From IMG/VR virus record IMGVR_UViG_3300030380_004637, positions 1 through 24,501 of that record: a stretch of DNA of 24,501 bases. The stretch is one strand, 5' to 3'. The DNA is from a virus. Each line of letters starts with the position of its first letter. Positions within the stretch are counted from its first letter, which is position 1. This document shows, one piece after another, positions 2,442-24,501 of this stretch. The translations under genes were made by a program, and so were the position numbers. The notes below the pieces were generated by a model. The model made no database searches. It worked only from the letters and a program-made list of their open reading frames with translations, and had not been told where the DNA came from.

Positions 2442-2497
2442 CCTCTCAAATGAAAGAAAAACCCAAAGGCTAACTAATAGCTCGCAAATACTAGCTG

Positions 2498-2509
2498 CGT
2501 ATATATACG
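2498..2509. promoter_or_regulatory. 12-base perfect palindrome CGTATATATACG
   Basis: A perfect palindrome with the same CGTA/TACG ends as the site at 2430. Near-identical sequences occur at 13076-13087 (one mismatch) and 13126-13137 (one mismatch), both in the other main regulatory gap of the window. In all three, CTAG precedes the site by 0 to 2 bases. It may be a shared operator or a phage-specific promoter element. Confidence 0.45.
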
Positions 2510-2546
2510 AGAGGGAATAAGCGTAGGAGATAGAAATATCCCCCGG

Positions 2547-2573
2547 ATTGTACAGAATATACCCTCTTGACAA
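2547..2573 (-). promoter_or_regulatory. Candidate leftward promoter, TTGTCA / TACAAT
   Basis: On the minus strand TTGTCA (2573-2568) is followed after 15 bases by TACAAT (2552-2547). The hexamers are good but the spacing is shorter than the usual 16-18, so this is a weak call. It would transcribe the DUF4214-like gene, the HNH gene and terL. Confidence 0.3.
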
Positions 2574-2647
2574 GACCAATTCCACTGTATGACAGCTTTT
2601 TTTTACAATTTTTTGCTATATCAGGCAAATTTTTTATAAATAATATG

Positions 2648-2689
2648 GGGGTATGGGACTCCTAGGGCATTTCTGGGCAAAAATACCCC
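2648..2689. repeat. Inverted repeat GGGGTAT / ATACCCC
   Basis: Seven-base arms at 2648-2654 and 2683-2689 flank a 28-base interval. No U-tract follows on either strand, so it is not a standard terminator. It could be structured RNA or a protein site. Confidence 0.35.
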
Positions 2690-2695
2690 TGTGAG

Positions 2696-2730
2696 TAGGT
2701 CAATAGGTCAGTATTTTAGGCATTTTAGGC
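2696..2730 (+). repeat. Two adjacent tandem repeats (TAGGTCAA x2, ATTTTAGGC x2)
   Basis: TAGGTCAA/TAGGTCAG occupies 2696-2711, then ATTTTAGGC is repeated at 2713-2721 and 2722-2730, followed by a run of T. Small iteron-like direct repeats in an AT-rich noncoding stretch near terminase genes could mark a replication origin or a packaging site. No function is shown. Confidence 0.45.
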
Positions 2731-2802
2731 TAATTTTTTGAGCGTTTTACTATGTATACAGATGACAGGTAGGCGTCTGCGTCAGGGGGGGTGGCGTCCC
2801 GG

Positions 2803-3306
2803 CTAGTGGAGCTGCTCATTTGTGCCATTTTCGTGCGTTTTTTCGGATTCGTGCGCGCCTTCGCTACTATCAGAAGCTGCGGCGCTCTCTAATAGTGCAT
2901 CAAGCTGCTCTAATAGCTCTGCGCTGTTCTGCTGCCCTTCCTCAATCGTTACCGTTTGATTGAGCATGCCCAAATGTTTCGCCATTAACTCACTAGCGCG
3001 GAGCGATCCGTTCTCACGCTCGCCATTGTCGATCGCATCTAGCCAGTGCTGCAGTACTTTGTCTCTCAGTGAAAGCGATGAGGCAAGTTGTGCCCGCGCA
3101 ATCTGCTGTAATCGCGCCTCCAGCCTTGCGGCGATCTTGGGGTTAGCCAATAGTCTGCTGGCTTCTTCGATAGCTGTTTTGGGATTGCTGCCCTCGCTAA
3201 CGTCATAAACGATACGATAACACTCTGCATTACTATGCTGCCCTGTTGCGACTAGGTTTATAAAGCGCTCTTGTTTTACTGACAAACCCTTTCGATTCGC
3301 TCCCAT
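2803..3306 (-). CDS. terS: Terminase small subunit
   Basis: A 167-residue protein that would recognise the packaging site and recruit the large subunit. The N-terminal part reads LSVKQERFINLVATGQ, then a helix-turn-helix-like region up to EEASRLLANPKIAARLEARL (about residues 8-68), the typical opening of phage small terminases. A central helical oligomerisation region follows. The last 35 residues are acidic and Ser/Glu/His-rich, as expected of a disordered tail. The ATG at 3306 has GGAG eight bases before it; an upstream in-frame TTG lies upstream of the predicted transcription start and is rejected. It is separated from terL by two genes and a 412-base gap, and faces a divergent early operon. 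Confidence 0.85.
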   Translation of the reverse strand: MGANRKGLSVKQERFINLVATGQHSNAECYRIVYDVSEGSNPKTAIEEASRLLANPKIAARLEARLQQIARAQLASSLSLRDKVLQHWLDAIDNGERENGSLRASELMAKHLGMLNQTVTIEEGQQNSAELLEQLDALLESAAASDSSEGAHESEKTHENGTNEQLH

Positions 3307-3337
3307 CGCTAATTCTCCGCTGCTATATAAAGCGCGA

Positions 3338-4417: not shown

Positions 4418-4466
4418 TAAAACTCAGCGCCAATCGTTATATCAATTCTACTGAGGAGTGGAAGCA

Positions 4467-5471
4467 ATGAAAAAGCAGGACACAGCAACCAAGATTAGCA
4501 AGCAAGTAAGCGCCAAACTGCAGGAGATCGCAGAAGCTATAGCCGATGGCAGCGCTACCGCCGATGAATTCCAAATGCCCTTTGGCGGTACTGGTGGAGC
4601 GCCTCACAATGTAGACAGCCAGCACTACGCCACCGGATCAAATGCGCTTATCTGCTGGATTATGGGCATTACCCACTACAGCACATACGATGGCTGGCTG
4701 CGCGCCGGTTACGCAGTACCAGCAGGGCAGCAGTCAATTGTCAGCCTACGCAAGCCGATGCCGATAAAGTATGAGCGCGAGAATAAACAAACAGGTGAAA
4801 CCGAGGAGCATAGCTTCACCAAATTTAGCGCCTTCGCTATTTGGGATTTTTCGCAGGTAGTTTTGCGAACGCCCGAGTCTGACGCAGCACTGCAAGAGAA
4901 GTGGGATCGACGATCTAAGCAGGCAGGCCGAGAGCGCAAGATCGTGCCGCCCATGCCAGAAAACCCCTGGACCCCGCCGGTAGTGGAGCGCCGCACGGAT
5001 GTGGAACTGCAGAAGGCGGTACAAGATTATATAGCCAACACTGGCGCGGATGTTGAATGGGTAGACGCAGATCGCGCTTGCTACACGCCCAGCGTTAACA
5101 AGATCACGCTCCCGCTGCCCGAGCGATTCCGCGACACAAAGCACAGCACAGCAGCGCAGAATCTAGCCAGCACCGCGTTGCATGAGCTAGGCCACTGGAC
5201 AGGTGGAGCGCAGCAGCTTGGGCGCAACTTTTCCATGGAGCGCCGCCAATATGCAGCAGAGGAATTGCTCGCAGAATCGCTGTCGGCAATTCTATGCGCG
5301 CAACTTGGCGTTGAATCCACAATGCGAATGGATCACGCGCAATATATAGCTAGCTGGCTGAAGGCGCTGAACAATGATCCCAAGTTTATTTTTGATACCG
5401 GCAGCGCAGCACAAAAAGCTGTTGACTATCTAAACTCGCTGCAGCCTGCAGCACTAACCGAGGCTGCATAA
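4467..5471 (+). CDS. ArdC-like antirestriction protein (ssDNA-binding plus zinc peptidase)
   Basis: A 334-residue protein. The N-terminal region (about 1-130), with TGSNALICWIM, YDGWLRAGY and SFTKFSAFAIWDFSQV, follows the ArdC N-terminal ssDNA-binding domain. The C-terminal domain has HELGH at 239-243 and a downstream EELLAESLSAIL helix supplying the third ligand, as in ArdC metallopeptidase-like domains. Known family members are plasmid or phage proteins that protect incoming DNA from type I/II restriction. The central segment (about 140-175) is a basic, Pro-rich linker. AGGAG eight bases before the ATG at 4467 favours it over the GTG at 4458. Placement near the start of the early operon fits an immediate-early protective role. 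Confidence 0.82.
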   Translation: MKKQDTATKISKQVSAKLQEIAEAIADGSATADEFQMPFGGTGGAPHNVDSQHYATGSNALICWIMGITHYSTYDGWLRAGYAVPAGQQSIVSLRKPMPIKYERENKQTGETEEHSFTKFSAFAIWDFSQVVLRTPESDAALQEKWDRRSKQAGRERKIVPPMPENPWTPPVVERRTDVELQKAVQDYIANTGADVEWVDADRACYTPSVNKITLPLPERFRDTKHSTAAQNLASTALHELGHWTGGAQQLGRNFSMERRQYAAEELLAESLSAILCAQLGVESTMRMDHAQYIASWLKALNNDPKFIFDTGSAAQKAVDYLNSLQPAALTEAA

Positions 5472-17805: not shown

Positions 17806-18208
17806 CAAATACTGCGAACACTGTGGCGCGAAGATGGTCGAGTATAAGCACGGTCTGTCCAAGAAACTTTGTCGTGCGCTGGCTATGGTAGTTACAAGAT
17901 CACGCAGCACTGAGCCACAAGAAATACGCGAAATGGGCTTGGACTACAGCCACAGGTGCAACTTCCAAAAGCTGCGGTACTGGGGGTTGGTTGAAAAAAT
18001 TGGAGACAAAGACTCAAAAGGCGGCTTGTGGAGAGTGACTGATCGGGGAATGGCATTTGTTACGGGCAACATAAGCTGCCCACGATTCGCGTGGACATAT
18101 CGGGGTGATGTGGTAAGGCACGAAGGTGATCTTATTAATATCACTGATATTTCAGGGGGCTGGAAATACCGAATAGATTACGCGAGAGAAAGCGAGCCTC
18201 ACAAATGA
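17798..18208 (+). CDS. Zinc-finger plus winged-helix-like protein, 136 residues
   Basis: Opens with YCEHCGAKM (Cys-x-x-Cys), followed by a region resembling a winged helix: LSKKLCRALAMVV, then NFQKLRYWGLVEKI, GGLWRVTDRGMAFV. The LRYWGLVE...GLWRVTDRG pattern is typical of small wHTH domains with a wing. A strand-rich C-terminal part ends in a basic-acidic mix. It may be a transcription regulator for the phage; the target is unknown. The ATG at 17798 overlaps the previous gene by eight bases, and the end overlaps the methyltransferase gene by four. An upstream reading to 17765 is rejected. Confidence 0.6.
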   Translation: MTDKYCEHCGAKMVEYKHGLSKKLCRALAMVVTRSRSTEPQEIREMGLDYSHRCNFQKLRYWGLVEKIGDKDSKGGLWRVTDRGMAFVTGNISCPRFAWTYRGDVVRHEGDLINITDISGGWKYRIDYARESEPHK

Positions 18209-18954
18209 AAAACGTGTTGGACTTATTTAGCGGTATTGGTGGATTTTCTATTGGCTTGGAAAAAGCAGGATTCACAACAACTGCGTTTTGTGAGATAGAC
18301 CCATACGCACAAAAGGTGTTGAAAAAACACTGGCCCGAGGTGCCGATTTACGATGATGTCAGACAAATCACAGCAGACAGATTGGCTTCAGACGGAATTA
18401 ACGTCGATGTCATCACGGCTGGGTTCCCGTGCCAAGACATCTCGCTTGCGGGAAACCAAGAAGGTCTTGACGGAGAGCGAAGTGGGCTCTGGTCAGAGTG
18501 CGCCCGTCTGCTTGGGGAGATTCGACCCCGATATGCCATCTTTGAAAACGTCACAAACCTGCTTGCTGGACAGCGGGGAAATTGGTTTAAGCGAGTTCTC
18601 TGGGACATTTCCGCGCTCGGGTATGATGCGGAATGGCACTGTATACCAGCTTCAACAGTTGGCGCACATCACAGAAGAGATAGAGTCTGGATTGTGGCCT
18701 ACCCCAGCAGCGAGGGATTGGAAGGGAGCGAGGAAGCCAGAGACAATGGCGAAGACGGGAAGAAACCCAGAAAACAACTCATTACCGGACTCGGTGGAGT
18801 TTCAAGGAGAACCTGGGCGGCTGAACCCAGCATGGGTAGAGTGGCTAATGGGATTCCCAAACGATCACACAGACTTAGATGTTTAGGAAATGCAGTCGTT
18901 CCCAAGATTCCTGAGTCTATTGGACATTCAATATGCCAAATAAAGAAACCGTAG
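18205..18954 (+). CDS. DNA (cytosine-5-) methyltransferase
   Basis: This 249-residue enzyme would methylate cytosines, probably shielding phage DNA from restriction. Motifs: I DLFSGIGGFSIGLEKAGF (6-23), IV GFPCQDISLAG with the catalytic Cys76, VI FENVTNLL, VIII HHRRDRVWIVAY and IX/X RLRCLGNAVVPKI near the C-terminus. The target-recognition region between VIII and IX is only about 60 residues and compositionally odd (Glu/Gly/Lys-rich), and this segment is read in another frame by the nested gene at 18353-18886. ATGA overlap with the previous gene. Phage methyltransferases with a compact recognition region of this type are common. Confidence 0.9.
   Translation: MKNVLDLFSGIGGFSIGLEKAGFTTTAFCEIDPYAQKVLKKHWPEVPIYDDVRQITADRLASDGINVDVITAGFPCQDISLAGNQEGLDGERSGLWSECARLLGEIRPRYAIFENVTNLLAGQRGNWFKRVLWDISALGYDAEWHCIPASTVGAHHRRDRVWIVAYPSSEGLEGSEEARDNGEDGKKPRKQLITGLGGVSRRTWAAEPSMGRVANGIPKRSHRLRCLGNAVVPKIPESIGHSICQIKKP
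18353..18886 (+). CDS. Nested overlapping gene inside the C5 methyltransferase
   Basis: A 177-residue frame lies entirely inside the methyltransferase gene in the +1 frame, with no stops for 534 bases. It carries conserved-looking motifs that I recognise from phage proteins: SLKTSQTCLLDSGE, GTFPRSGMMRNGTVYQLQQL, LWPTPAARDWKG and LNPAWVEWLMGFPNDHTDL. Proteins with these motifs recur in phage and prophage genomes, usually annotated as hypothetical or methyltransferase-associated. GAGGTG lies 10 bases before the ATG at 18353. Function unknown. It may aid or modulate the methyltransferase, or reflect a conserved dual-coding locus. A chance open frame remains possible but does not explain the family-like motifs. 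Confidence 0.62.
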   Translation: MMSDKSQQTDWLQTELTSMSSRLGSRAKTSRLRETKKVLTESEVGSGQSAPVCLGRFDPDMPSLKTSQTCLLDSGEIGLSEFSGTFPRSGMMRNGTVYQLQQLAHITEEIESGLWPTPAARDWKGARKPETMAKTGRNPENNSLPDSVEFQGEPGRLNPAWVEWLMGFPNDHTDLDV

Positions 18955-19448: not shown

Positions 19449-19894
19449 TAAAGATTGCCTTGGCTTCTATGATGCTCGACGTTAATCAGGTGCTGGTTGA
19501 TGATGTCTTCTTTGGACTGACCGCTGTACCGGACGCCTAGGTTTTCATCCAGCAGCATCTGATTCAAGGTTTTTTCTTGGAAGCCGTCTTCACCTGGGCC
19601 TTTTGCCAAATGAATTTCTGCGAGTATGCGCCCGAACTTGCCCTTTTTATCTAGCGATGTTCTCAGCAGCACAGTAGAGCCAACCGGCAGACGCTCTTCC
19701 ACAAACTTCTTTGCTAGGTTGCCCAAGGCTTTGAGATCGTCTGTCCCGCCTCTGGTTTCACTGGTATCTACACCCAGAAGCCTTATTGACCTCTTGCCCA
19801 ATATGACAGAAAAGCCGCAGTCTACATTGCAGATAACGCTATCTCCGTCTACGACTCTACACACCTCCGCTCTGTACAGCCATTGCATATCCAT
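19448..19894 (-). CDS. Staphylococcal nuclease-like (SNase) protein
   Basis: A 148-residue OB-fold nuclease homologue. CRVVDGDSV (12-20) gives the Asp18 metal ligand. IRLLGVDTSETRG (37-49) holds Arg38, Asp43, Thr44 and Glu46, spaced as Arg35, Asp40, Thr41 and Glu43 of staphylococcal nuclease, and KKGKFGRIL (83-91) gives Arg89 for Arg87. All catalytic positions appear intact, so activity is expected. No signal peptide; it may act in the cell on host DNA or travel in the virion, being directly downstream of the polyvalent protein. TAATG overlaps at both ends. Confidence 0.85.
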   Translation of the reverse strand: MDMQWLYRAEVCRVVDGDSVICNVDCGFSVILGKRSIRLLGVDTSETRGGTDDLKALGNLAKKFVEERLPVGSTVLLRTSLDKKGKFGRILAEIHLAKGPGEDGFQEKTLNQMLLDENLGVRYSGQSKEDIINQHLINVEHHRSQGNL

Positions 19895-22800
19895 TATAAA
19901 AAGGTGCTCGGTATTAGCGGCAAGTCAGCGTACTCTTTGAGTCGCGGGATTACCTGGAGTTGTTGGTTTAGCCTCTGGTCAAGCTGATCCAGCATGGCTC
20001 TCTTGGTTTCGGGATCTATGTTCTGCCTTTGTATTCTGTCTCTTTGCTTTCTGACTTTATCCATAGCCTTCTTGATATTGTATACAGGCTCTTTCAGTGC
20101 AAGCAGGGATTCTCTGCCAACTAAATATCGCTCTAGCTCTTCTCTTCTGCCTTCTTTCTTGAGCTTGTTGACAGTGGAACGAACAGTTAGAACCTCACGG
20201 TACAGATCATACGCGTCTTCACGCAGACCGCCCCCTTCTTTGGAGCCAAAGAACCGCTTGATGATTGGATACTCGTAAGGCTGCATAGCTGGCATCTTGG
20301 CCTGCTTGTCGCCCTGAACCGCCTCGCTCCTCATAATGGTATCTACCGTATCAAGAACGTAGCTTCCTATAGTACCAGTGTATCCATACAGCACATGGTC
20401 TATTTTCAGAGGGCTGATATTTGCAAATTGCCCGACAATTTTAGCTACCTCGCTCGCTCCATAGCGATCTTGCAACCCAGCAGTAACCGTTTGATCCATG
20501 TAGTAAGGAACAATCTTTCTGCCGGTAAACGAATTGTAGTTAAGCGCTGCTTCTAAAAAAGGCCCAAACGCCTGTATGCCCAGAGGGTTTATTTCAAACG
20601 TAGATGTAATCGCTCGTATCGCCGTGTCCCTGACTTCTGGCGATGACTTATCGCCCACCGTGGCAGCGGCTACTGTTTCCGGTATTGTCTTGAAAAGAAT
20701 GCCAACCTCAAACGGGATAGGCAGCTTTATGGGTACGCCCCAGACAGTCGGAATAATCCAGTTATTGTCTCTTGTTACCTCTGTCTGCTCTTGGTACTGC
20801 TCGTTATCGCTAACCAAGGCGTAGTAAAGCAGGGTGAGGCCAGCCATAAGACTGCCGCGCATCATCATTTTTGCGATTGCTTCGCTTCTTGCAAGCTCCT
20901 TGTTGGCTGTGTAGCCCCCGGTTGCCGCCCGGTAAAAGACATCCAAGCCCTGTATTCTGGCGTTCAAGAACGGTATTGCTGCAGTCACTGTGCGGAATAC
21001 TGGGCTGGCACCACGCCTTGAGAAGTTAATTACTTCCATAGCCTGGAACAGCGCCTCTGCTTCGTTCCCTGTTCGCGCAAGAACATCCTTATAAACAGCC
21101 ATTCTGGTAGCAGAATCAGATGCTGTAGTTGCAGAGCCAAGCGCATCCCATGCCCTTCCAACAAGATTGAAGGCAGAAAGCTCATTGTTTCTGCGCTTCA
21201 TCTCTTTTTCAAAGAAGCTGCCTATATCGTCTGGATCATTGGAGTAATCATAGCCGCCGACAACACCTGCCCTTTCCAGAGCATCTACCGATCCTCTTAA
21301 ATTCCTCACAGAGTCGATGACAGGCGTGAAATCAGCACCACTTGTCGCCCACGCAGACAGCGTATCGCGCATTAGGTTGGCAACCATAAAGCCAGGATCT
21401 CTGGTGATGGCTTCTCTCAGGAACTTGGCTGGCCAGCCAAGAACTTTTTGTACGGTCGTTAGGCCAGAGTCAGAGCCGATCATCTGAAGAGAATCAAAAA
21501 GCATCTTGTCTTTTATGATGAAAGACCTGTTTTGCCCGTCCACCTTTAGCTTGATAACGTGCGCCTCTGAAGAGGTCGCTGATGTTTCCTGCGCCAAGCC
21601 CATAGATTGCATATCTCTAACAATCCGCTGCTGGGCAACATTCTTCATACCAAGCTCAATGGCAGCAGAAAGATTCAGGCTAATTGACTCTATTAATCCG
21701 ACATTAACACCTTCATCCTTACCTTTATATTTTTTAAACTCGCCACGAAATGTAAGGCTGGCCCCATTTGCTGCACCAAAAACACCTCTAGCGTCTTTGC
21801 CTTGGTTTGGATCTGCCGCCTCTCTGTAGAAAGGAACATACGATGATTTTTTCCACTTTTCGGCTGTCTCTGCATTTAGCATCCCTGTGTCTAACAGGAA
21901 CTCAGTGGTCTTGGCATTGTATGCCTGCCAAACGGAATGCCATTCCTTGACGGGGTTATAACCATTTTCGTCAGTCAGTGCGTCAATCTCTGCGCGAACT
22001 GCTGCGGCTTTTTCTGGGGTAACTGGTGTCAGCTTACCGTCAGCATCAAGAACTTCTCCACGCAACACCATTGCATAGGCTTGCGCGTAACGGGTCATGT
22101 CTCCCCGCTCTTTTGAATACAGCAGGGACATTACTTCGATCAAGCCTTTGTATTGCTTGCCCACTGTCTGAGGCTTGTAGCCATCACTGTCAGCGTCTGC
22201 GTCCGGTAGCGGCCTAAAAAAGAAGTCTTCTACGGTTGTAACGCCACCCCTGTATACAGCCACACCTTTGGTAATTGCCGAGGCAAGGACGCCTTTTGCC
22301 CTATCAGAGAACAACACAGCGGCTATTGCGCTGGAGTCTGCCTCCAGATCACGCAACTCAGGGTTCTTTGCATAATATCGCTCCAGCACTGAATACTTAT
22401 TTATAAACTGCTCCCTAAGAATAAGCAGTGCTTTTCCTATTTTTCCTTTCGGCAGGATGTCTGTGACTTCGTTTAAAGTCTCAATCGGTGTCTGGGGAGT
22501 CTCGTTACTGGTCAGGTCATCTACTGCTTTCCTGCCCGACTCCGTTTCACCTTCATACTGCTGCCTAGAGTACATCTGCTGCTGCGTTGGTTCTGCAGCG
22601 GCCTCTGGATTCTGCGCCACATACTGAGCATCTGGGGATGCCGTGACGGTGTTACGAGAGATAATCGTTGGGTTCTCTCTGATAACACGCTTGTTCTCTT
22701 CTACAGCCTCTTCTACTTTGACCGGATCGTGCGCTCTTGGCTGTGACTCTGCGCGGCTTTGCTTGTCAACGCTCCTGTCTATCGGCATATCCCTTTGGGG

Positions 22801-24501
22801 TGAAGGCGCATCCTCTGGCGCTGTCTGCTCTGTATCAACATCCATAGCCCTCTGCTGTTTTTGCTGGACTACAGGTCGATCAGCTACCTCTTGCGATCTT
22901 TGCTGTGTCCGCTTGGGCTTTCTCCTCGTTGGCTCTTGGCCCTCAACGTATCCAAGCACATCCTCCGTGATGCCTCTCTCTTCTATCTCTCCCCTTCTGG
23001 CTTCTGTTGCTCTCAGGGTGCGTACCACACCCCGCTCTCTGCGCCCCACCTCTCCAGTACGAATGGCATTGACCAGATCAGCGTATGAATCAGCGTCAGA
23101 CTTTGCCGCCGTGGTGACAATGCCCTTGAAGAAATTGACCACCTTGTTGAGTAGCTGTCTGATCTTGCCGCTGGGCTTTGTTACCTTGCCGTCAATGTTT
23201 ACGCCATCGGTTAGGGAGTCGCGCAGCATCTCTGCAATCGCCTCTTCCTGCATCTCAACAGGCGTTCTATCCTTGTATGTTCTAGCCGCCCATGCCGCAT
23301 AGGACATATTTGTTCCAGGCTTTACGTACTTCCTGCTCAATCGCTCAAGAAGGCTAAATTCTTTTGCCGTAATCAGGTCAAGTCGGCGCAGGGCATGGAT
23401 AACTTCATGGTTGAGTATGTCGGCAACCGCCTCTTGATATGTCAGATTTCCGTCTTCAACCTTGGTTTTTACCCGATCAAGACTGATCTGGATAACCTTG
23501 TTTAGAGGATCAAAGCTGCCCTCTACAACCCTCCCCTCTGCAGCGTCTTGTGCCAGAACATCGGGGTCTATCTCTACTATCAGATCGCCATCTGCGTTAA
23601 ATGTCGCGTTGCCAACTTGGTCAACGAGCCGTGTAGTAACCTGATCGGCTATACCAAACCCAGCTAGTGTTTCTCTGAGACTCTGTGCCAGCTTGCTTGC
23701 TTCACGATTTACTTGTTGGCGTTTTCCTGGCTGTTGCGTTCTGGCAATCCTGTCGTATATACGGCCTAGCTCTGCATCTTGCGCCTGTAACTCTTCGAGA
23801 GTGACCGGATCACCAGACTCCAGCCTTTGCTCTTGCTGCGCCACAGAACGCTCTACCTCAGTCGCCTCCTGTATTGCGGCTTCGTCCTGACTGCGTAACG
23901 CTTCTTGCTGCTGTGCCGCCTGAACGCGCTTTACTTCGTTAAGTCGTAGTGCGTTTATTTGTTTTTGGTTTTCTTCCTGTACTGTGGCGGTATCTCTGTT
24001 GAGATTATCTCGCTGCAATCTAAGATCATTGAGTCTTGCGCCTAGGTTGCTGGTTGCAGCATAGGTTCTGGTTGACGGAATATCCTTGTCAAAGACGTCC
24101 AGCGCGTCACTAATATCAGAAAGAACCTGATTTGCATCTGGTCGCTCTGGATAAAAGCCGGCGTCTGCAAGTAGCTCTCCTAAAGCGTCCATTGAAAGAC
24201 CGCCTTCATCCTCAAAGAGACTGTAGTATCGGCTTCCAGGTCTAAATCTGTTTGCAACTGTGCCTTTAACTCTATGAAGCGGTCTATCACCCTTCAGTGG
24301 GGGTACATCCAGACCCTCGCTCAAAGCCTCTTGCATATTAATACCGCCAACTTTAGCGGCGGCAAGAAGAATATCGTCTTTTTCGGGGTCAGCAGGAAGG
24401 CTGACGTTTCTTTCTTCTGCCTTTCTTACGTCCTTCTCTATTTCTTCTATTTGACTGTTGAGATTTTCTGTTTCTGCTTCAATCCTGTCCGTTTCTGCCT
24501 T
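19894..24501 (-). CDS. Giant polyvalent phage protein, partial, with LPD38-like C-terminus
   Basis: 1535 residues are visible and the frame continues past the right edge, so the start is missing (the ATG at 24336 is internal). From the edge: a charged coiled coil (about 1-35), the segment PEKDDILLAAAKVGGIN, and a region with HEVIH (visible residues 365-369), a possible metallopeptidase zinc motif. A long Gln/Arg/Glu-rich low-complexity linker follows, then a large helical C-terminal half (DFFFRPLPDADAD, EINPLGIQAFGPFLEAALN, GRKIVPYYMDQ) resembling the large polyvalent protein domain LPD38. Such proteins are packaged and ejected with phage DNA. Followed by SNase and membrane protein genes in one unit. 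Confidence 0.8.
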   Translation of the reverse strand, partial: KAETDRIEAETENLNSQIEEIEKDVRKAEERNVSLPADPEKDDILLAAAKVGGINMQEALSEGLDVPPLKGDRPLHRVKGTVANRFRPGSRYYSLFEDEGGLSMDALGELLADAGFYPERPDANQVLSDISDALDVFDKDIPSTRTYAATSNLGARLNDLRLQRDNLNRDTATVQEENQKQINALRLNEVKRVQAAQQQEALRSQDEAAIQEATEVERSVAQQEQRLESGDPVTLEELQAQDAELGRIYDRIARTQQPGKRQQVNREASKLAQSLRETLAGFGIADQVTTRLVDQVGNATFNADGDLIVEIDPDVLAQDAAEGRVVEGSFDPLNKVIQISLDRVKTKVEDGNLTYQEAVADILNHEVIHALRRLDLITAKEFSLLERLSRKYVKPGTNMSYAAWAARTYKDRTPVEMQEEAIAEMLRDSLTDGVNIDGKVTKPSGKIRQLLNKVVNFFKGIVTTAAKSDADSYADLVNAIRTGEVGRRERGVVRTLRATEARRGEIEERGITEDVLGYVEGQEPTRRKPKRTQQRSQEVADRPVVQQKQQRAMDVDTEQTAPEDAPSPQRDMPIDRSVDKQSRAESQPRAHDPVKVEEAVEENKRVIRENPTIISRNTVTASPDAQYVAQNPEAAAEPTQQQMYSRQQYEGETESGRKAVDDLTSNETPQTPIETLNEVTDILPKGKIGKALLILREQFINKYSVLERYYAKNPELRDLEADSSAIAAVLFSDRAKGVLASAITKGVAVYRGGVTTVEDFFFRPLPDADADSDGYKPQTVGKQYKGLIEVMSLLYSKERGDMTRYAQAYAMVLRGEVLDADGKLTPVTPEKAAAVRAEIDALTDENGYNPVKEWHSVWQAYNAKTTEFLLDTGMLNAETAEKWKKSSYVPFYREAADPNQGKDARGVFGAANGASLTFRGEFKKYKGKDEGVNVGLIESISLNLSAAIELGMKNVAQQRIVRDMQSMGLAQETSATSSEAHVIKLKVDGQNRSFIIKDKMLFDSLQMIGSDSGLTTVQKVLGWPAKFLREAITRDPGFMVANLMRDTLSAWATSGADFTPVIDSVRNLRGSVDALERAGVVGGYDYSNDPDDIGSFFEKEMKRRNNELSAFNLVGRAWDALGSATTASDSATRMAVYKDVLARTGNEAEALFQAMEVINFSRRGASPVFRTVTAAIPFLNARIQGLDVFYRAATGGYTANKELARSEAIAKMMMRGSLMAGLTLLYYALVSDNEQYQEQTEVTRDNNWIIPTVWGVPIKLPIPFEVGILFKTIPETVAAATVGDKSSPEVRDTAIRAITSTFEINPLGIQAFGPFLEAALNYNSFTGRKIVPYYMDQTVTAGLQDRYGASEVAKIVGQFANISPLKIDHVLYGYTGTIGSYVLDTVDTIMRSEAVQGDKQAKMPAMQPYEYPIIKRFFGSKEGGGLREDAYDLYREVLTVRSTVNKLKKEGRREELERYLVGRESLLALKEPVYNIKKAMDKVRKQRDRIQRQNIDPETKRAMLDQLDQRLNQQLQVIPRLKEYADLPLIPSTFL

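Follow-up and report, generated by a model that had tools for sequence, protein, structure and literature searches.

A nested frame carrying motif IX inside a phage C5-cytosine methyltransferase gene points to a split enzyme encoded on doubly used DNA

Single-chain C5-cytosine methyltransferases have their target-recognition domain (TRD) between motifs VIII and IX. The large domain of C5 enzymes comprises motifs I-VIII and X, and the small domain comprises the TRD and motif IX (PMC3404938). Passages of PMC3404938 that cite Lee et al. 1995 describe M.EcoHK31I (YGGCCR) as a two-polypeptide C5 methyltransferase, with motifs I-VIII and X on the large chain and motif IX on the small chain, and place its predicted TRD in the large chain. 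M.AquI (CYCGRG) has motifs I-VIII on one chain and IX-X on a small chain (PMC3404938). A hidden, out-of-frame HNH element in phage methylases, the ShiLan domain, has been described as a mobile insertion (PMC11855218). The literature searched yielded no account of a gene nested within those of phage C5 methyltransferases.

We analyzed the window, which is the whole of the IMG/VR virus record IMGVR_UViG_3300030380_004637 (24.5 kb; 24,501 nucleotides), with a focus on a methyltransferase chain without motif IX (alpha) and a chain with motif IX nested in its +1 frame (beta). As in M.EcoHK31I, compared here by description only, motif IX is found on a separate small chain. The small chain of M.EcoHK31I is said to be encoded in an overlapping alternative frame of the large one and to be similar in size to beta; here, a small chain in another frame within the large one was found at 431 loci, including the window. 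However, M.EcoHK31I is a single restriction-modification enzyme, whereas the present pair occurs in phages and in bacterial genomes of many phyla, and its TRD is predicted in the large chain, whereas here a conserved segment precedes motif IX in beta and motifs IX and X migrate between frames. The motif division of M.AquI is shared by some relatives (L296, L396, L422, and L447), but the window keeps motif X on alpha, and its beta is fully nested. The likeness to ShiLan is that a phage methylase gene conceals a second protein in a different frame; a hidden HNH insertion of that type was rejected, as beta has no Pfam domain at E<=1 and the overlap spans the conserved catalytic core with no insertion. 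Split C5 methyltransferases are therefore a known kind, with M.EcoHK31I and M.AquI as precedents, and what appears to be new is the breadth across phages and bacteria, a conservation that is strict and long-standing, the movement of IX and X between frames, and the probable placement of recognition in the hidden chain.

Alpha (18205..18954, plus strand as are all features of the pair, 249 aa) is the large-domain chain of a C5-cytosine DNA methyltransferase; it has motifs I-VIII and motif X but is without motif IX. It matched phrog_363 at 3e-78 and PF00145 at 1e-50, the latter covering only profile positions 2-169 of 324. Columns of motif I (DLFSGIGG, AdoMet binding, 18220..18243) are near-invariant; in motif IV (GFPCQDIS, containing the catalytic Cys, 18421..18444), aligned to M.HhaI, G73-Q77 and S80 are invariant and D78 nearly so; and motif VI (ENV, 18544..18552) is invariant in alignment A3. 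Further invariant residues are R158 and R160 of motif VIII (HHRRDRVWIVA, 18667..18699), the last conserved part of alpha within the PF00145 match, and G228, N229, V232, and P233 of motif X (LGNAVVP, 18883..18903). The hallmarks of the family in alpha, namely invariant PCQ, ENV, and R-x-R together with a Rossmann fold, are thus present. The alpha model (pLDDT 82) matched the M.HhaI fold with Z 27 over 209 of 327 M.HhaI residues, and pLDDT fell below 50 at residues 173-181 and 194-225, within the place of the small-domain insertion (173-225).

Beta is a 177-aa ORF at 18353..18886, with an ATG start and its stop at 18884-18886, and is wholly enclosed by the alpha ORF. Translation of the window bore out the initial annotation, which had reported this +1 frame as open inside a C5 methyltransferase: its 177 codons contain no stop, against 4.2 expected from shuffles that keep the alpha protein. 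The frame correspondences quoted there were also right: beta residues 84-95 (GTFPRSGMMRNG) share their bases with alpha residues 133-144 (WDISALGYDAEW), and beta WPTPAARDW (115-123) overlaps alpha WIVAYPSSEG (162-171). A conserved block, FSGTFPRSGMMRNGTVYQL (18596..18652), has near-invariant columns at P87, S89, G90, G95, Y98, and L100 and scored 93.9 bits, compared with 35 +/- 8 in alpha-synonymous shuffles. Downstream lies the WPTP region (18695..18820), a variable-length, probable target-recognition segment whose alpha reading is a low-confidence linker; across relatives, a WPTP-like motif is present 1-4 times in most loci, and the distance from the core to motif IX ranges from 79 to 226 aa. 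The C-terminal end of beta carries motif IX, LNPAWVEWLMGFP (residues 157-169, 18821..18859), with M166, G167, and P169 invariant (n=79 sequences), and by HMM placement this motif shares a 70-nt stretch (18808..18877) with the motif-X region of alpha. Beta matched phrog_1008 (5e-26) and is a member of that family, whose label, 'DNA methyltransferase', is silent on the overlap with a C5 methyltransferase in the other frame; no NCBIfam family was matched. Beta is no separate phage protein family, a point that the initial annotation missed: it holds motif IX, and probably the target-recognition part, of the same methyltransferase.

The coding status of beta was assessed against a null model in which synonymous codons of alpha were shuffled, preserving the alpha protein and its codon usage. 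We used a set of 58 sequences (the window and 57 non-redundant homologues picked by alpha protein alone) and a set of 267 non-redundant viral and bacterial loci arranged like the window (class A: IX on beta, X on alpha), in which the beta core extends from the conserved block to motif IX. The +1 frame of the 58 sequences had 51 stops, compared with 407 expected, and the beta core of the 267 loci had 4, compared with 668 expected, so the presence of frequent stops in homologues, named earlier as evidence against dual coding, was not seen and dual coding is favoured. Among the 58 sequences, the +2 frame had 752 stops versus 674 expected, and the most depleted reverse frame had 204 versus 270. 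The +1 products of the same set resembled the window beta with z of 5.9 to 15 over shuffles (median 10.7). At alpha-conserved residues, the observed-to-expected ratio of codon identity was 1.17 ahead of beta, rose to 2.12 within it, and was 1.32 beyond it, and synonymous constraint on alpha begins and stops at the two ends of beta. Third-position differences per site were 0.55 and 0.56 outside beta, 0.22 in its first half, and 0.11 in the IX/X overlap, where alpha codons change most slowly at position 3 and fastest at position 1, which is the wobble position for beta. Such a rate pattern is the classic signature of dual coding, with beta the more constrained in the IX/X stretch. Both frames code and both are under purifying selection. 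The suggestion that both are constrained at the same bases thus agrees with the stop depletion, the nested similarity, and the jump in synonymous constraint at the beta ends, and codon identity and third-position rates speak against a pattern in which only the methyltransferase frame is conserved.

Over the first half of beta, some of the resemblance is a shadow of alpha conservation, with shuffles averaging 7-79 bits against an N-terminal beta model, and because shuffles keep this score, the first half alone is no evidence. Weak matches to the first half only (for example, L496, L497, L505, L506, L508, and L512) were rejected, as their scores lie within the alpha-synonymous shuffle range.

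Beta begins in the window with ATG ATG (18353..18358), and the ribosome-binding site that had been proposed ahead of it is a predicted GAGGTG at 18337..18342, 10 nt before the ATG. Homologues mostly begin one codon earlier, with ATG ACG ATG, and an ATG at, or a few codons from, this place was identified in 57 of 58 sequences. The ATG of the homologues is created by TAT-GA at alpha Tyr49, whose codon is TAT in 55 of 58 sequences, compared with 13 of 59 alpha Tyr codons upstream of beta, where TAC is preferred; in the window, that ATG has been lost (TAC) and a new one is found one codon later (GAT-GAT). SD-like GAGGTG, GGAGGTG, or GGAGT is usually present upstream of beta, at a place where the alpha residue varies between E, G, R, and D, and its conservation is modest (mean longest match of 4.76 vs 3.90 under the synonymous expectation).

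We searched for motif IX in the alpha frame of the 267 loci with IX in beta and found no match. With IX in beta, the PF00145 match of alpha ends at profile positions 166-194; with IX in the alpha frame, it reached 319-323 of 324 in 6 of 7 chains tested, from relatives of the L242 group. The C-terminal block of beta is identified as motif IX because relatives (L242 and L304-L313) carry the same block in frame with alpha, between VIII and X, where it lengthens the PF00145 match. In a contiguous relative, LNPDWVEWLMGFP aligns with M.HhaI LHPRECARVMGYP, a low-scoring stretch, yet collinear with VIII and X. Between VIII and IX, it is beta that holds the conserved material, and alpha is variable there, with low pLDDT. 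Searched by sequence against solved structures, the beta profile had no match, and the model of beta alone was poor (pLDDT 56). As the WPTP region of beta occupies the place of the TRD in single-chain enzymes, beta most likely carries the TRD before motif IX, an assignment made uncertain by the prediction of the M.EcoHK31I recognition domain in its large chain (PMC3404938). The division between chains in class-A loci matches the large-domain/small-domain division of single-chain C5 enzymes. Further, class-B loci retain a beta without motif IX, which argues that beta does more than supply this motif.

Across relatives, 431 of 464 loci belonged to class A. Class B, which has IX and X in the alpha frame and retains in +1 a beta that is shorter or without IX, comprised 12 loci, or 14 with L229 and L494, and class C, with IX and X in beta and alpha ending near VIII, comprised 7 loci, including the 4 M.AquI-like relatives named above. 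No second IX in alpha or second X in beta was identified in the 267 class-A loci. On a maximum-likelihood tree of alpha, against a class-A background, class B represents 2 changes and class C 4, on an unrooted tree with the direction of change as we infer it; motifs IX and X have thus moved between frames at least 6 times, as if in a set of natural experiments in frame swapping. In the L304-L313 group, beta begins at a new site, in most members with a recognisable SD of its own (for example, AGGAGGTTAAT before ATG); its conserved block scored 73-96 bits versus 23-32 in shuffles, and the first half of beta holds stops and is no longer clearly above shuffles. That the motifs relocate repeatedly without loss or duplication argues for a two-chain enzyme and against an unrelated overprinted protein.

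Several loci with apparently different architectures were also inspected. At a bacterial locus (L227, 2193-4057), motif IX and a probable motif X lie on a third ORF of their own, downstream from both alpha and beta; this may be a three-piece version or a case of decay. L204 of Paenibacillus macquariensis (2454-3325) was rejected as a new architecture, as an indel after WPTPTARDYK brings IX into the alpha frame and strands X, and its beta has stops, so that it looks like a decaying copy. Mycobacterium phage Llama (L001, 1498-2257) and L217 were likewise set aside, since in each, as in L204, a single indel seems to break or shift both frames, and all three were read as decay or sequencing error. 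The Llama record carries 2 'DNA methyltransferase' genes, 74 and 75, and the same two-piece match was identified in several other mycobacteriophage records.

Searching phages with the 177-residue product, as had been advised, matched 73 phage records, including those of mycobacteriophages, cyanophages, and phages of Microbacterium, Salmonella, Sulfitobacter, and others. We also picked 80 bacterial loci solely by the pattern of beta motif IX, and nearly all were nested in +1 within a methyltransferase, the exceptions being class-B, frameshifted, or edge-cut; the loci belonged to Pseudomonadota, Actinomycetota, Bacillota, Bacteroidota, Verrucomicrobiota, Acidobacteriota, Planctomycetota, and more. 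When 964 sampled bacterial genomes were searched by profile, a few per cent were positive (14/369, 9/296, and 8/299), some shadow matches included. No stand-alone beta was confirmed by the beta motif in viral and bacterial contigs or by the profile in the 964 sampled genomes. In L046, L210, and L303, the main census had no match to the alpha N-terminus, and a motif-X region adjoins the beta motif. Among 9 intact phage records, alpha only was annotated in 7, the beta frame only in 2, and both frames in none, which, with 431 class-A loci, supports the proposal of a widespread overlap missed by one-frame annotation. The 2 beta-only records, from Mycobacterium phage Bipolar and Microcystis phage Mwe-JY08 (partial, at the record end), list beta as a 'hypothetical protein'. 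In Bipolar (L469, 520-1071), the beta frame is annotated and the methyltransferase frame left out; in the related phage Spikelee, only the methyltransferase frame is annotated.

We consider it probable, at about 0.86, that the locus is one split C5-cytosine methyltransferase on doubly used DNA, an orphan phage enzyme with a catalytic alpha and a beta that carries motif IX and recognition. Alpha is without IX, beta has it, and the ensemble holds one copy of each motif despite the moves between frames. Alpha, read in frame 0, would fold as the large catalytic domain with motifs I, IV, VI, and VIII and the C-terminal X, and beta would arise by internal initiation in the +1 frame, at 18353, as the small DNA-recognition domain, with motif IX and, most likely, the variable recognition segment. 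The DNA of that segment would be read by alpha as a poorly conserved, probably disordered linker reaching motif X, and by beta as the protein that matters. The two chains would then assemble into an active methyltransferase that shields phage DNA from host restriction. This scheme predicts that beta is initiated internally in the cell, that the chains assemble as a heterodimer, that beta is the specificity part, and that the enzyme is protective.

The same frames could be used in another way, with no separate beta start: ribosomes would shift +1 after alpha motif VIII and make a single chain with I-VIII, the TRD, and IX beside unshifted alpha with X. A shift near alpha residue 165-170 would link VIII directly to WPTP...IX, and the C-type alpha ends near VIII; however, constraint on beta sets in about 115 codons ahead of the end of VIII, at a conserved ATG that has an SD, the L304-L313 loci use a different start with its own SD (AGGAGGTTAAT, for example), and the shifted chain would be without motif X, so we regard frameshifting as improbable. 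We give a marginally slimmer chance to beta being an overprinted protein of other function that has only the DNA in common with alpha, for example a phage protein for regulation or anti-restriction. In its favour, no known domain matches the first half of beta or the WPTP region, and B-type betas are without IX, but motif IX sits in beta exactly where alpha is without it and changes frames with neither loss nor duplication, and no beta was confirmed standing alone in the viral and bacterial contigs or the 964 sampled bacterial genomes.

Alpha conservation together with codon usage, or else an RNA- or DNA-level element, could leave the +1 frame open as a side effect, and shuffles do keep some likeness to beta in its N-terminal half; but the matched null of alpha-synonymous shuffles is hugely exceeded, strong stop depletion is confined to the +1 frame, and an RNA element would not hold +1 stops at 4 versus 668 while the core-to-IX length varies over 79-226 aa. 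This explanation is already contradicted by the shuffle, frame, and stop tests, and we leave it next to no weight.

The split-enzyme reading changes how these genes are to be read, as records list one of two frames, at times with beta as a 'hypothetical protein'. In window-like loci, the annotated methyltransferase chain is without motif IX and is probably inactive alone. 'Orphan methyltransferases' cloned or assayed from the annotated CDS retain beta only with unrecoded DNA; after codon-optimised synthesis, beta would be gone. Beta, at about 530 bp and nested over its full length, is conserved from cyanophages and mycobacteriophages to many bacterial phyla and is among the clearer long dual-coding cases in bacterial viruses, and through its frame-swapped relatives, direct tests of how overlapping genes arise and persist become possible. 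As to why the superimposed domains are kept, we tentatively suggest, as a possibility we would not bet on, that they are useful: modular WPTP-type recognition repeats in beta may alter specificity, alpha may tolerate the same DNA as a linker, and a single message may set the ratio of the chains.

Elsewhere in the window, an ArdC-like anti-restriction protein was identified at 4458-5471 (MPTase-PolyVal at 1e-32 and a weak ArdcN match; phrog_7245), which fits a phage that protects its DNA, a role that it would presumably share with the methyltransferase. Further, a 1480-aa ORF on the minus strand (19894-24336) encodes a giant phage protein with the Large polyvalent protein associated domain LPD38 (6e-31).
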